Part shown: one piece after another, positions 3,931 through 7,392 of the stretch
How positions within the stretch are numbered: the first letter of the stretch is position 1
Layout of the letters: each line of letters starts with the position of its first letter
Source of the DNA: Treponema denticola
Lineage (GTDB): Bacteria; Spirochaetota; Spirochaetia; Treponematales; Breznakiellaceae
NCBI GenBank assembly: GCA_020719845.1
Contig: DYPP01000006.1
Location: 1-59,280 of the forward strand
Direction of reading: 5' to 3'
Length of the DNA: 59,280 bases
Program-made: the position numbers and the translations under genes
Notes under the pieces: generated by a model
What the model saw: the letters and a program-made list of their open reading frames with translations, nothing else
The model's database searches: none
What the model was told of the DNA's origin: nothing

Positions 3931-5064
3931 ATGCATCCATTGATCGCCGGACCCCTGGTCGTCGCCCTGGTTTCGTCCGTCCTGGCCTTGCTCATCGCCA
4001 TCGTCGACCGCATCGTCAACGACTACGGCGACGTGGTCATCGACATCAACCAGGGCAAGAAGGTACTTACCGTCAAGGGCGGGTCGCCGCTGCTGGGCAC
4101 GCTGGCTTTTCAGGACATCTTTGTGCCTTCCGCCTGCGGCGGCCGGGGTTCTTGCGGCGCCTGCAAGGTCCGGGTGTTGTCCGACGTGGGTCCCCACCTG
4201 CCCACGGAGCTGCCCTACCTGACGCCGGAAGAAGTGGCCCGGAACGTGCGCCTTTCCTGCCAGATCAAGCTTAAAAAAGACATCGCCGTCGAATTGCCGG
4301 AAGCCCTGTTCAACATCCGCAAGTTCGGCGCCACCGTGGAAAGCATCCGGGATCTGACCTACGACATCAAGGAAGTCTACCTGCGGCTGAGCGACGAGGC
4401 GGTGGCCGCAGGCGGCGTTTCCTTCAGTCCCGGGCAGTACGCCCAGCTGGTGGTGCCCCCCTACGGCGAAGTCAAGAGTTCGGTGCAGCGGGCCTATTCC
4501 CTGTCTTCCACCCCCCAGGACAAGAACCATATCGAACTGCTGGTCCGCCTGGTGCCCGGCGGCATCGCCACCACCTGGGTGCACCAGTTCCTGAAGGAAG
4601 GCCAAAAGGTCGAGGTCATCGGACCCTTCGGGGAATTCGGCATCCGGGAAACCGACGCGGTCATGCTCTTCGTGGCCGGCGGTTCGGGCATGGCGCCCTT
4701 CAAGAGCATGCTCAACCACATGGCCCAGACCGGCGCCTGGACCAACCGGGAAATCTGGTACTTCTTCGGCGCCCGGTCCAAGCGGGACATGTTCTACCTG
4801 GACGAAATGGCCGCCCTGGCGGAAAAATTCCCCAACTTCCACTTTGTGCCCGCCCTTTCGGAACCCAAGCCCGAGGACGAATGGAAAGGGCCGACGGGGC
4901 TGATCACCAACGTGCTGGACGCCTACATCAAAGAACGGATCACCAAAGGGAAGCCGCTGGAAGGCTACCTGTGCGGCAGTCCGGGCATGATCGACGCCTG
5001 CAACAAGGTCATGAACAACAACGATATCGGCCAGGACAAGATCTATTACGACAAATTCGCCTAG
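3931..5064 (+). CDS. nqrF: Na+-translocating NADH:quinone oxidoreductase subunit F (NADH dehydrogenase)
   Basis: The electron-input subunit: it oxidises NADH and passes electrons through FAD to a 2Fe-2S centre. Domain order is an N-terminal membrane helix (residues about 5-25), a ferredoxin domain with C69, C75, C78 and C110, then a ferredoxin-reductase module with the FAD motif RAYS at 187-190 and the NAD loop GGSGMAPF at 250-257, ending in CGSPGMID and an aromatic tail. At 377 residues it is slightly shorter than NqrF of Vibrio (about 408). All expected ligands are present. This subunit distinguishes Nqr from Rnf. Its stop codon lies in the first bases of the repeat at 5063. Confidence 0.93.
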   Translation: MHPLIAGPLVVALVSSVLALLIAIVDRIVNDYGDVVIDINQGKKVLTVKGGSPLLGTLAFQDIFVPSACGGRGSCGACKVRVLSDVGPHLPTELPYLTPEEVARNVRLSCQIKLKKDIAVELPEALFNIRKFGATVESIRDLTYDIKEVYLRLSDEAVAAGGVSFSPGQYAQLVVPPYGEVKSSVQRAYSLSSTPQDKNHIELLVRLVPGGIATTWVHQFLKEGQKVEVIGPFGEFGIRETDAVMLFVAGGSGMAPFKSMLNHMAQTGAWTNREIWYFFGARSKRDMFYLDEMAALAEKFPNFHFVPALSEPKPEDEWKGPTGLITNVLDAYIKERITKGKPLEGYLCGSPGMIDACNKVMNNNDIGQDKIYYDKFA

Positions 5065-5219
5065 GAGTTTGTCGGACTTGTCCGTTTTGAATTAGAAAAA
5101 TTGCGGCTCGCCGCAATTTTTACCTTGCAAACTCCCAAAGGAGCCGAGTTTATCGGGATTTTCAGGTCCCAAGGGTCCCCTTGAAACCTGAAAATCCACT
5201 AGTTCGACAGGCTCCCAGG
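5063..5219. repeat. Multi-hairpin dispersed repeat, copy 1
   Basis: This stretch is repeated at 7234-7392. Positions 5063-5156 match 7236-7329 with only four differences in 94 bases. Visible pairings are: GGAGTTTG (5064-5071) with CAAACTCC (5127-5134); CGGAC with GTCCG around 5073-5084; a perfect 12-base hairpin at 5096-5121; GGAGCC (5140-5145) with GGCTCC (5210-5215); and an 18-base arm at 5158-5175 pairing with 5178-5195 with two mismatches. The second long hairpin differs in sequence from copy 2 but keeps pairing. There is no open frame. It looks like a small palindromic element or structured RNA cassette. Confidence 0.85.
5096..5121. terminator. Bidirectional intrinsic terminator-like hairpin inside repeat copy 1
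   Basis: AAAAATTGCGGC (5096-5107) and GCCGCAATTTTT (5110-5121) pair perfectly around TC. The arm ends in five Ts on either strand, so it could stop transcription both ways. It lies 32 bases after the nqrF stop codon. The identical hairpin occurs in copy 2. Confidence 0.6.
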
Positions 5220-5235
5220 GCACCGGAGGCTATCC

Positions 5236-5682
5236 ATGAAGATGCTGTATGACGACAAGAACGCCGCGGAAAGAATGAAGCCCGGGGTCATCACCAGCGG
5301 CGGGTTTTTGGGCACCGATATCCGGCCGCTCGCGGACATCATCCAGGCGGACGAAGAAATGTTCCAGGTCCTGGGGCTGGATTTTGAGGCCGTCGCCGAC
5401 GCGCTGACCCGCCTGGAGCGGGAAGGCGCGCGGGGTTTGGGCGAACCGATCACCGTAGACTCGGTCTGGTTGGTAAAAAGCGACGAAGCCCGGGGCAAGT
5501 TTCCCTGCCCCTACGGCGACGGCCTGTTCCACAAGAATGCGGTCAGCGTGGAACGCGGCGCGGACCGGATCGTCTATTCGGACCTTTCCGTCCACCTGCT
5601 GCGGGCGCACCATTTCTGCCAGGGTGAGGGCAGTCCTTTCCGGCTGGACCCGGTGGCGGTAAAGAGGATACTCGCGGAATAA
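5236..5682 (+). CDS. Protein of unknown function, 148 residues
   Basis: I do not recognise the family. The product is soluble and mixed in charge, with no signal peptide or membrane segment. Visible blocks are SGGFLGTDIRPLADII near the N-terminus and FPCPYGDGLFHKNAV near residue 90, then a region with paired histidines (LLRAHHFCQGEG). The first block recurs in start-anchored small proteins of uncertain role, so I assign no function. ATG at 5236 has CGGAGG about seven bases upstream. It follows repeat copy 1 and has the same base composition as its neighbours, so it looks like a real gene. Confidence 0.6.
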   Translation: MKMLYDDKNAAERMKPGVITSGGFLGTDIRPLADIIQADEEMFQVLGLDFEAVADALTRLEREGARGLGEPITVDSVWLVKSDEARGKFPCPYGDGLFHKNAVSVERGADRIVYSDLSVHLLRAHHFCQGEGSPFRLDPVAVKRILAE

Positions 5683-5697
5683 GATCAAGGGTGCGGG

Positions 5698-5876
5698 GAT
5701 GCCAAAAAAAAGCGGGAGGATTACCGGCGGCTTAAGAAACTGGACACCAACTACCAGGTTTTTTCGGCGGCCGGAAAAAAGTCACCATTTCCAGCAACCT
5801 GGAAGCGACCAAGCGGACCATTGAAGGCTGTGAAGCCGGAGGCGCGCAAAAACTGACCGACTACGTGGCTGATTGA
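5698..5876 (+). pseudogene. Remnant of an FAD-dependent oxidoreductase (phytoene desaturase-like)
   Basis: Two reading frames that meet at the A-run 5775-5780 give a continuous protein-like text: EDYRRLKKLDTNYQVF in one, then VTISSNLEATKRTIEG and a stop at 5874-5876 in the other. The pattern 'LD-x-x-Y-x-VF ... G-K-x(2)-ISS-x-LE' resembles an internal stretch of CrtI-like NAD(P)/FAD oxidoreductases. There is no start codon in a good context, no FAD-binding GxGxxG, and a frame change, so it would be a decayed fragment. The likeness is recalled, not searched. It ends exactly where the palindrome at 5872 begins. Confidence 0.35.
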
Positions 5877-5918
5877 GGCTGTCCCGTAACTCAGGGAGTT
5901 ACGGGACAACCTCAATCA
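5872..5918. repeat. Near-perfect 45-base palindrome
   Basis: ATTGAGGCTGTCCCGTAACTC and GAGTTACGGGACAACCTCAAT are inverted copies (21-base arms, one mismatch) around AGG. No T-run follows it directly. It separates the gene remnant from the small gene at 5948. It may be a dispersed hairpin unit, a transcription stop, or a scar of a small palindromic element. Only one copy was seen in this window. Confidence 0.7.
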
Positions 5919-5947
5919 GGTATTGTCGTACGACAGGAGCGGGATCC

Positions 5948-6217
5948 ATGTTCAGTGCCCTGGAATTGCAAGAAAAAAAATACGAAGAAACCTTTGAACA
6001 GGAAGTGCGCGGCCTGGAACGCCGTCGTGCCTACGACCCGACCTGCACCGTCGAGGATCTGGACGGCATCCTGCAGAATCTGTACAAGATGGAAGGCGCC
6101 GACTGGACCGGCCGGGGTGAACTGCAGGACGCCATCCTGCAGGCCACCATCGCCGCCTACGAGCACGTCATCGCCGAATGGCGGACAGAAGAAGCGGCTC
6201 CGGGCGCCGATATTTAA
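5948..6217 (+). CDS. Small protein of unknown function, 89 residues
   Basis: An unrecognised, mainly helical and acidic protein. It begins MFSALELQEKKYEE and contains a conserved-looking YDPTCTVEDLDGILQNLY block near residue 30, then alternating helical segments to an acidic tail. No signal peptide or membrane segment is visible. The frame is open upstream to 5873, but that part runs through the palindrome; ATG at 5948 has CAGGAG at 5934-5939 and is the better start. It sits alone upstream of the phosphate uptake genes and may be independent of them. Confidence 0.6.
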   Translation: MFSALELQEKKYEETFEQEVRGLERRRAYDPTCTVEDLDGILQNLYKMEGADWTGRGELQDAILQATIAAYEHVIAEWRTEEAAPGADI

Positions 6218-6326
6218 CCGAAAGCTCACACTATTCAAACCTTCGATTCATACCGCCCCCGTATATTTCAGCTGTGCTAAAAAGGAAGGCCGTTCAGGCT
6301 TTTCAAACCTTATTCGGAGGAAACAG

Positions 6327-7214
6327 ATGAAGAAAATTCTAATGATCGTTGTATCGTTTGCGGTCGTGGCCGCCGCAGTAATGGCCGGCGGATCCAAGGA
6401 TGCCGCTCCCGCCCCCGCCGCCCCCGCCGCTGCTCCCGCTGCTCCGGCTGCCCCGGCTCTTTCCGGTACCTATACGTTCGGTGGTTCCACCACCGTGTCC
6501 CCCATTGCCTTCAAAGCGCTTGAAGCTTTCCAGAAAGACAATCCGGGCGTCAAGATTTCCTATGAAAGCGTCGGTTCTTCCACCGGCCTCAAGCAGCTCC
6601 AGGCCGGCGTCTACAGCCTGGCCGGTTCCAGCCGCCACATCACGGACGCTGAAAAGACCGCCGGCGTCGTGCCCTATCCGATCTGCCTGGACGGTCTGAC
6701 CATCGTCGTCAACAAGGACGTGAACATCAGCAGCCTGACCCTCGAGCAGCTGGCCAAGATCTACTCCGGCCAGATCAGCAACTGGAAGGACGTCGGCGGT
6801 ACGGATGCGGCCATGGTGGTCCTGAATCGGGATGAAACCTCCGGCACCTACGCGGCCATGAAAGAAATGGTGCTCGATCCGGCCAAGCTCAAGTACCGCG
6901 CCGACGCCCTGGTGGCCAAAGAGAACGGTGAAATCGCCGCCAAGGTTGCTTCCACGCCCCATTCCATCGGCTACATCGGCATGGCTTTTGTGGATCAGGT
7001 CATCAGCGCCGGCGGCAAGACCGTGCTCATCGGCGGCGTGGAACCCAACATGGCCAACGTGATCAGCAAGTCCTACCCCCTTTCCCGGAACCTCTTCGTG
7101 GCCACCAAAGGCGAGCCCGCCGCCGGTACCGTCGAGAAGGCCTTTGTCGACTTCCTGCTGTCCCCCAAGGGCCAGGCCATCGTCAAGTCCGTCGACTACA
7201 TCCCGCTCCCCTAA
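6327..7214 (+). CDS. pstS: Phosphate ABC transporter, periplasmic phosphate-binding protein
   Basis: A 295-residue PstS-family protein that captures inorganic phosphate outside the inner membrane and delivers it to PstCA. A signal peptide (residues 1 to about 20) is followed by an Ala/Pro-rich linker, then the family motifs GSTTVSPIA (phosphate-contacting loop) near residue 53, a helix with SSRHIT, the LAKIYSGQISNWKDVGG block and NRDETSGTYAAM. Many PstS proteins in other bacteria are lipoproteins; here the cleavage region is VMAGGSKD with no cysteine, so it is probably soluble. ATG at 6327 follows CGGAGG at 6315-6320. Phosphate-starvation control is expected, but no regulator site was recognised. 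Confidence 0.92.
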   Translation: MKKILMIVVSFAVVAAAVMAGGSKDAAPAPAAPAAAPAAPAAPALSGTYTFGGSTTVSPIAFKALEAFQKDNPGVKISYESVGSSTGLKQLQAGVYSLAGSSRHITDAEKTAGVVPYPICLDGLTIVVNKDVNISSLTLEQLAKIYSGQISNWKDVGGTDAAMVVLNRDETSGTYAAMKEMVLDPAKLKYRADALVAKENGEIAAKVASTPHSIGYIGMAFVDQVISAGGKTVLIGGVEPNMANVISKSYPLSRNLFVATKGEPAAGTVEKAFVDFLLSPKGQAIVKSVDYIPLP

Positions 7215-7233
7215 TCAAGGGATCAGGTTCGTT

Positions 7234-7392
7234 CCAGGAGTTTGTCGGACTTGTCTGTTTTAAATTGAAAAAATTGCGGCTCGCCGCAATTTTTACCTTG
7301 CAAACTCCCAAAGGAGCCGAGTTTATCGGCATTTTGGCAACCCAAGGGGCACCCTTGGGTTGCCAAAATCCACCAGTCCGACTGGCTCCTGG
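7234..7392. repeat. Multi-hairpin dispersed repeat, copy 2
   Basis: Second copy of the element at 5063-5219. Its ends are imperfect inverted repeats: CCAGGAGTTTGTCGGACT (7234-7251) against the complement of the last 18 bases (7375-7392), with three mismatches. The first hairpin (7269-7294) is identical to copy 1. The second has perfect 18-base arms, 7331-7348 with 7352-7369, around GCA. Five consecutive positions in the left arm differ from copy 1, and all five are compensated in the right arm. It occupies the pstS-pstC gap. Confidence 0.85.
7269..7294. terminator. Bidirectional intrinsic terminator-like hairpin inside repeat copy 2
   Basis: Same perfect 12-base stem with TC loop and flanking A5/T5 as at 5096-5121. 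Placed after pstS, it could let part of the transcripts end there so that the binding protein is made in excess of the permease. That role is inferred. Confidence 0.55.

Follow-up and report, generated by a model that had tools for sequence, protein, structure and literature searches.

Miniature inverted-repeat transposable elements (MITEs) of the IS1182 family are already on record in archaea: the MITEs related to ISMac2 of Methanosarcina acetivorans are listed (PMC3852290) as a 160-bp type in 14 copies and a 169-bp type in 7 copies, with inverted-repeat lengths of 25-26. For ISPse1, another insertion sequence (IS) of the IS1182 family, a 4-bp direct repeat has been reported (PMC3281130). Here we analyse a hairpin-rich repeat that occurs twice in a 59,280-nucleotide stretch of Treponema denticola (assembly GCA_020719845.1, contig DYPP01000006.1; the whole stretch is hereafter called the window). 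We conclude that this repeat is very probably a non-autonomous MITE mobilised in trans by DDE transposases of the IS1182 family. The first-pass annotation of the window had left the choice between a structured RNA, a palindromic mobile unit and a combination of the two. The mobile unit is well supported by the inverted repeats at its termini, by the dispersal of its copies, by sites that are empty in homologues and by insertion sequences of the IS1182 family whose ends match, whereas the RNA part gained no direct support.

Element ends, CTAG sites and IS1182 transposases

A DNA search of the source genome, a 3.3-Mb draft in 252 contigs, returned 9 full-length copies at E <= 5e-42 and several halves and fragments. 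The element is non-coding, measures 146-160 bp and, in the aligned copies of this genome, has a fixed layout of CYAG, a unit A (GGAGTTTGTCGGACTTGTCCG...hairpin...CTTGCAAACTCC), CAAA, a unit B (GGAGCC...hairpin...CCACCAGTCCGACAGGCTCC) and YRG. Its terminal inverted repeats had been called imperfect, but they match better than that: over about 20 bases the two ends read CYAGGAGTTTGTCGGACTTGT and CYAGGAGCCTGTCGGACTKGT in most of these copies, forming a 20-bp inverted repeat. Two 225-bp elements (contigs C179 and C236) have other interiors inside identical ends, and a 46-bp element (C202) consists of the ends with almost no interior. Since the same ends bracket unrelated or near-absent interiors, we define the element by its ends. 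The two 225-bp elements (L075, G000:C179:14903-15127; L076, G000:C236:7488-7712), with ends of the IS1182 type, are a nearly identical pair, one of which sits on the stop codon of a gene. No IS could be traced from the single unpaired ends in the source genome (C107, C169, C155).

The element's ends, CTAG-SAGYYTGTNGSRCTT (about 20 bp), are also the ends of IS1182 insertion sequences. The end motif CTAGSAGYYTGTCGGACTT matched 28 IMG/VR viral contigs, mostly near contig ends as repeats would be, and open reading frames (ORFs) starting just inside the motif encode IS1182 family transposases (NCBIfam NF033551; 366.9 and 363.1 bits against a cut-off of 270). One such element, L361, is complete at 1538 bp from CTAG to CTAG; both L361 and L368 have CTAGSAGYYTGTNGSRCTT ends with CTAG at both sides, and the end CTAGGAGCCTGTCGGACTT, found in IMG/VR contigs such as L374, is the B end of the source-genome element. 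Among 120 genomes of the family, 35 have NF033551 matches. In one of these genomes, Kf353_bin150 (G095), IS1182 fragments begin at the left with CTAGGAGCCTGTGGGACTTTGG, complementary to the B end CCAAAGTCCCACAGGCTCCTAG of the resident element, and the IS1182 right end CTAGGAGTTTGTGGGGCTTCAGC (L417) matches its A end CTAGGAGTTTGTGGGGCTT. In the same genome one IS1182 fragment and an element copy have a CTAG in common (L418), a decayed 1770-bp IS1182 copy retains both ends (L390), and the terminal identity between IS1182 and element extends over 19-22 bases (L417, L418, L421, L390). Facing ends of the element type were present at 9 of 49 IS1182 loci, in genomes G095, G063, G047 and G073, compared with 0 of 32 loci of Y1 transposases (p = 0.008). 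Transposase genes with matching ends, which the first-pass annotation had named as support for a MITE, were thus found in relatives but not in the source genome. The ORFs between neighbouring ends in Treponema contigs were ordinary host genes and included no transposase.

Two further arrangements of such ends were seen elsewhere. A viral contig (L384, IMGVR_UViG_3300049914_000257, 1695-1734) has a minimal 40-bp palindrome, CTAGGAGTTTGTCGGACTTTGGAGTCCGACAAACTCCTAG, made of two ends only. On a 3.75-kb contig of the source assembly, an element (L077/L342, G000:C157:3373-3539) has similar ends (CTAGCCGCCTGTCGGACTTGAG...CTCAAGTCCGACAGGCTGCGAG) around a different interior; by eye the genes of this contig (a phosphatase-kinase fusion and a transporter) look proteobacterial, so the contig is probably a contaminant, which hints that such MITEs occur in other phyla too.

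Of 84 complete elements, 54 are bounded by CTAG on either side (3 by CCAG/CCAG, 2 by CCAG/CTGG), and adjacent element copies have one CTAG in common. The word is scarce in element-bearing contigs (291 observed versus 1988 expected from base composition). The flank was long enough for this comparison in 66 elements; in 32 of them an ORF of at least 100 aa has its TAG stop within the bordering CTAG, compared with 20 of 143 other CTAGs (p = 2e-7). Two sites were found empty in homologues. An element lies in a Y1-transposase-like gene at L090, where the intact homologues L231 and L239 have four bases instead (TTGA, ATGA). In G098 an element occupies a stop-codon CTAG, and the G124 homologue has CTAG with no element, the left side being clear and the right flank diverged. 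It is likely that the CTAG at both sides is a true 4-bp duplication, although CTAG is self-complementary and element-owned ends would look identical. An IS481-type duplication of 6 bp (NCTAGN) was rejected, as the bases beside the two CTAGs differ. Where the terminal tetranucleotide departs from CTAG, it mostly reads CCAG or CTGG, which might reflect very-short-patch repair acting on CTAG(G) contexts.

We infer mobilisation by an IS1182 transposase from these comparisons. The transposase would bind the outer ends and move the fused pair of units into CTAG, which would then stand on both sides with any TAG stop codon intact. A gene hit at its TAG stop would keep its stop codon, so that such insertions would survive.

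Several points weigh against this conclusion. The self-complementarity of CTAG makes a 4-bp duplication indistinguishable from element-owned ends, and CCAG/CTGG end pairs (copy 2 of the window, L005) are not direct repeats. The NF033551 search found no IS1182 gene in the 252-contig draft of the source genome. Further, IS1182 genes show no enrichment in element-rich genomes (8 of 26 with at least 10 copies, versus 35 of 120 overall); as draft assemblies lose repeated IS, the missing association is weak, yet real, counter-evidence. Given that a MITE can outlive its partner, we treat an autonomous partner in the same genome as supporting rather than defining. Finally, most MITEs lack an interior constraint such as that described below, which a model built on the ends alone leaves unexplained.

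The two copies in the window and their paired interior

The pair of copies is the only dispersed direct repeat of at least 40 bases in the window. The repeat was confirmed with its bounds corrected to include the terminal tetranucleotides, and its features are as follows.

5061..5218, plus strand: element copy 1, with terminal CTAG (5061-5064) and CCAG (5215-5218); G5064 also opens unit A
5062..5064, plus strand: TAG stop of the upstream NqrF-like gene (3931-5064), within the left CTAG of the element
5064..5135, plus strand: unit A of copy 1, with closing stem GGAGTTTG...CAAACTCC, small hairpin CGGACTTGTCCG and inner hairpin AAAAATTGCGG/CCGCAATTTTT; covariation across 37 sequences
5136..5139, plus strand: central CAAA of copy 1, joining the units (CTCC-CAAA-GGAG); conserved across genera
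5140..5215, plus strand: unit B of copy 1, with closing stem GGAGCC...GGCTCC, small hairpin and long inner hairpin; CAGG subtype
7234..7392, plus strand: element copy 2, with terminal CCAG (7234-7237) and CTGG (7389-7392); between pstS (6327-7214) and pstC
7237..7308, plus strand: unit A of copy 2
7309..7312, plus strand: central CAAA of copy 2
7313..7389, plus strand: unit B of copy 2, with closing stem GGAGCC...GGCTCC and the perfect 18-bp stem ATTTTGGCAACCCAAGGG/CCCTTGGGTTGCCAAAAT

The NqrF-like gene before copy 1 has TIGR01941 as its best model, at 278 bits slightly below the cut-off of 295. Between the copies, at 5871-5920, lies another palindrome, TGATTGAGGCTGTCCCGTAACTCAGGGAGTTACGGGACAACCTCAATCA, after a short degraded-looking stretch.

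Much of the earlier description of these copies held. There are 4 differences across the first 94 aligned bases, the second hairpin has CAGGT in copy 1 (5163-5167) where copy 2 has GGCAA (7336-7340), with ACCTG and TTGCC in the other arm so that pairing is kept, and the second hairpin of copy 2 is a perfect 18-bp stem. In copy 1 this hairpin also has two C.A mismatches further in, which had gone unrecorded. Predicted RNA folding of the two copies lies well under that of shuffled sequence (z = -8.2 and -9.3).

The five-base block had been read as five double changes, which overcounts the compensations. Unit A of copy 1 is 99% identical to unit A of another copy, L002, while its unit B is just 74-82% identical to every other copy, and in three copies (L006, L007, L009) it is the A unit that diverges, with 79-84% identity to copy 2, the B unit being ordinary at 92-94%. 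As the A and B halves of the source-genome copies are mosaic in this way, the block is likely a single event, and it probably came in one step, by exchange or conversion between copies or by hairpin replacement.

Between genera, however, the covariation is genuine and strong. Across 37 diverse sequences, unit A has changes on both sides at 11 of 27 pairs, with a covariation score of 0.301 compared with 0.092 for shuffled sequences and at most 0.087 with the partner slid. The alignment was made by MAFFT with the structure named by the analyst, so a lean towards structure is possible in these scores, and the sequences are related, so that the shuffles are not a strict test. The covariation goes beyond both controls and fits RNA and DNA folding alike. 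For the second base of the closing stem, which is G or C, pairing holds inside unit A for 67 of 70 elements and inside unit B for 68 of 70, whereas at the same position the outer ends pair in 48 of 70 and the bases across the centre in 52 of 70. Units A and B are therefore kept paired separately; in the Im510_bin12 lineage, for instance, the position is C/G in unit A and G/C in unit B.

The interior consists of two palindromic units, each with its own GSAG/CTSC closing stem and hairpin. The full transposase motif is kept at the outer end of each unit only, so the pair would move as one, and the units may be two miniature elements fused at CTCC-CAAA-GGAG. The pairing itself would be kept either by selection on a fold that transposition or transcripts depend on, or by arm-to-arm copying together with hairpin swapping.

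The latter process, compatible with an IS1182 MITE, would account for the interior with no selection on the fold: paired arm changes would arise by template switching within quasi-palindromes and by swapping of whole hairpins between copies. We rate it as close to an even call, a little on the doubtful side. The mosaic A and B units agree with it, as do interiors visibly patched with other hairpins (L147, L117, L150) and the behaviour of IS1272, an IS1182-family member reported to replace stem-loops upon insertion (PMC5678879). On the other hand, covariation across genera is seen in short closing stems and small hairpins that lie within nearly invariant sequence, which fits selection at least equally.

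Alternatively, the interior fold as well as the ends may be selected, the two separately folding palindromic units being maintained by compensatory changes over dozens of genera. They could serve as single-stranded or cruciform DNA for a structure-dependent IS1182-type transposase, or as a transcript-level device that makes stop-codon insertion tolerable. We offer this only tentatively and think it rather unlikely; structure-dependent behaviour is plausible in view of the report that IS1272 targets as well as replaces stem-loops (PMC5678879).

In Kf353_bin150, other palindromes, for instance GCGGACACGAAGTGTCCGCGGCTGCTAG and TCGAACC...GGTTCG, are inserted in or replace parts of the element (L117, L128, L150, L136), and CTAGCAGCCGCGGACACGAAGTGTCCGCGGCTGCTAG also occurs there alone as a CTAG-bounded hairpin.

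RNA and other transposase readings

A conserved structured RNA, such as a cis-acting element of the 3' untranslated region, a terminator or a stabiliser, would have its fold selected with mobility secondary or past. The covariation over the 37 sequences, the strong folding, the A and T runs that flank the inner hairpins and the sites directly behind stop codons would all suit such a role. However, there is no orientation bias to genes, with the gene stop at the left end in 16 cases and at the right end in 20, which speaks against a one-directional RNA role. No Rfam family was matched, and a terminator scan was empty for the element copies. Copy number varies strongly within a genus, homologous sites are empty, and the identical ends enclose an unrelated interior in C179 and C236 and hardly any interior in the 46-bp element of C202. 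We therefore consider an RNA of this kind improbable as the primary identity of the repeat.

The element also recalls palindromes of the repetitive extragenic palindrome (REP) and REPIN type, spread by REP-associated tyrosine transposases (RAYTs; Y1, HUH) acting on single-stranded hairpins. Two tailed palindromic units in inverted arrangement, with GSAG at the unit foot, are reminiscent of GTAG-tagged REP dimers (PMC3733652), and the source genome has two Y1 genes. One of them is a RAYT-like gene (L047, G000:C241:18725-19060) with GGGGACAG on both sides, as described for 'TIRYT' genes (PMC3733652). However, this flanking sequence is the motif of a different RAYT group, neither Y1 gene is flanked by an element copy, and the element-type end motif was absent from all of the 32 Y1 loci. 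The element and Y1 genes show no association, as 12 of 26 genomes with at least 10 copies are without Y1 while Y1 is present in 68 of 120 overall. The element's tag is CTAG on both sides (CTAG-SAG ends), neither GTAG nor CGTC. Mobilisation by a RAYT is thus largely refuted and, in our judgement, highly implausible.

A MITE of the IS630 (TA within CTAG) or IS5 (CTAG) family is equally hard to credit: CTAG suits the insertion habits of both groups, but no IS630 DDE_3 gene was found in a search confined to the source genome, and NCBIfam assigns every intact transposase examined within these ends to IS1182, the IS5 models scoring far under cut-off.

Distribution and comparison with known systems

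A conserved-centre pattern, TTGCAAACTSCCAANGSAGCC, matched at least 115 stretches, nearly all from metagenome-assembled genomes (MAGs) labelled 'Treponema sp.' or 'Spirochaetaceae'. Kf353_bin150 accounts for dozens of the matches and Gracilinema caldarium for one; judging from the style of the isolate names, the MAGs are presumably from termite-gut spirochaetes. When the 120 genomes of the family (57 genera) were scanned with a covariance model of unit A (R1), the element was found in 67 genomes and 38 genera, at 1 to at least 37 copies each. Copy number differs even within a genus (2, 2 and 27 in genus g6). The same model found no element in a sample of about 147 genomes from elsewhere in the spirochaete phylum. 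The core pattern matched no viral contigs, whereas the end motif did match some, and plasmid sequences had no match to the element. A core-pattern match in Burkholderiaceae (L133) lies inside other sequence and was rejected as chance.

These data identify a very abundant repeat of Treponema MAGs, one that breaks many contigs, and tie it to a transposase family. With many hundreds of copies in dozens of genera, the family is also a natural data set for asking whether selection or mutation bias maintains the hairpins inside bacterial MITEs. CTAG is depleted and often serves as a stop codon; insertion at this word shows how an element can spread through gene-dense genomes with little damage.

We found no description of this Treponema element family in the literature searched, the coverage of which was incomplete. 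The first-pass annotation knew of no described family with this layout; this holds for the layout, but IS1182-family MITEs as such are already known (PMC3852290). To our knowledge, the novelty lies in the interior, a composite of two units whose fold is conserved across dozens of genera.

The element resembles the ISMac2 MITEs in size, in being non-coding, in its IS1182-family partner and in a comparable copy number. One of the ISMac2 MITEs is recorded with a 4-bp direct repeat. Those MITEs are archaeal, however, and no two-unit covarying interior is reported in the description consulted (PMC3852290). IS1272 is reported to replace stem-loops with no duplication (PMC5678879), and no such replacement is seen at the empty sites of the element. 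With REPs, REPINs and GTAG- and CGTC-tagged palindromes associated with RAYTs (PMC3733652), it shares dispersed palindromes, paired units and sites behind genes, but it has another tag, no link to Y1 and a longer composite unit. The autonomous IS1182 insertion sequences (NF033551; L361, L368) have the same terminal sequence and CTAG on both sides, unlike the element in that they are 1.5-1.8 kb long and encode a transposase. Finally, bcr1 of the Bacillus cereus group is, like the element, mobile, about 155 bp long and able to adopt an RNA-like fold, although its hosts are unrelated and its ends, as far as we know, differ.

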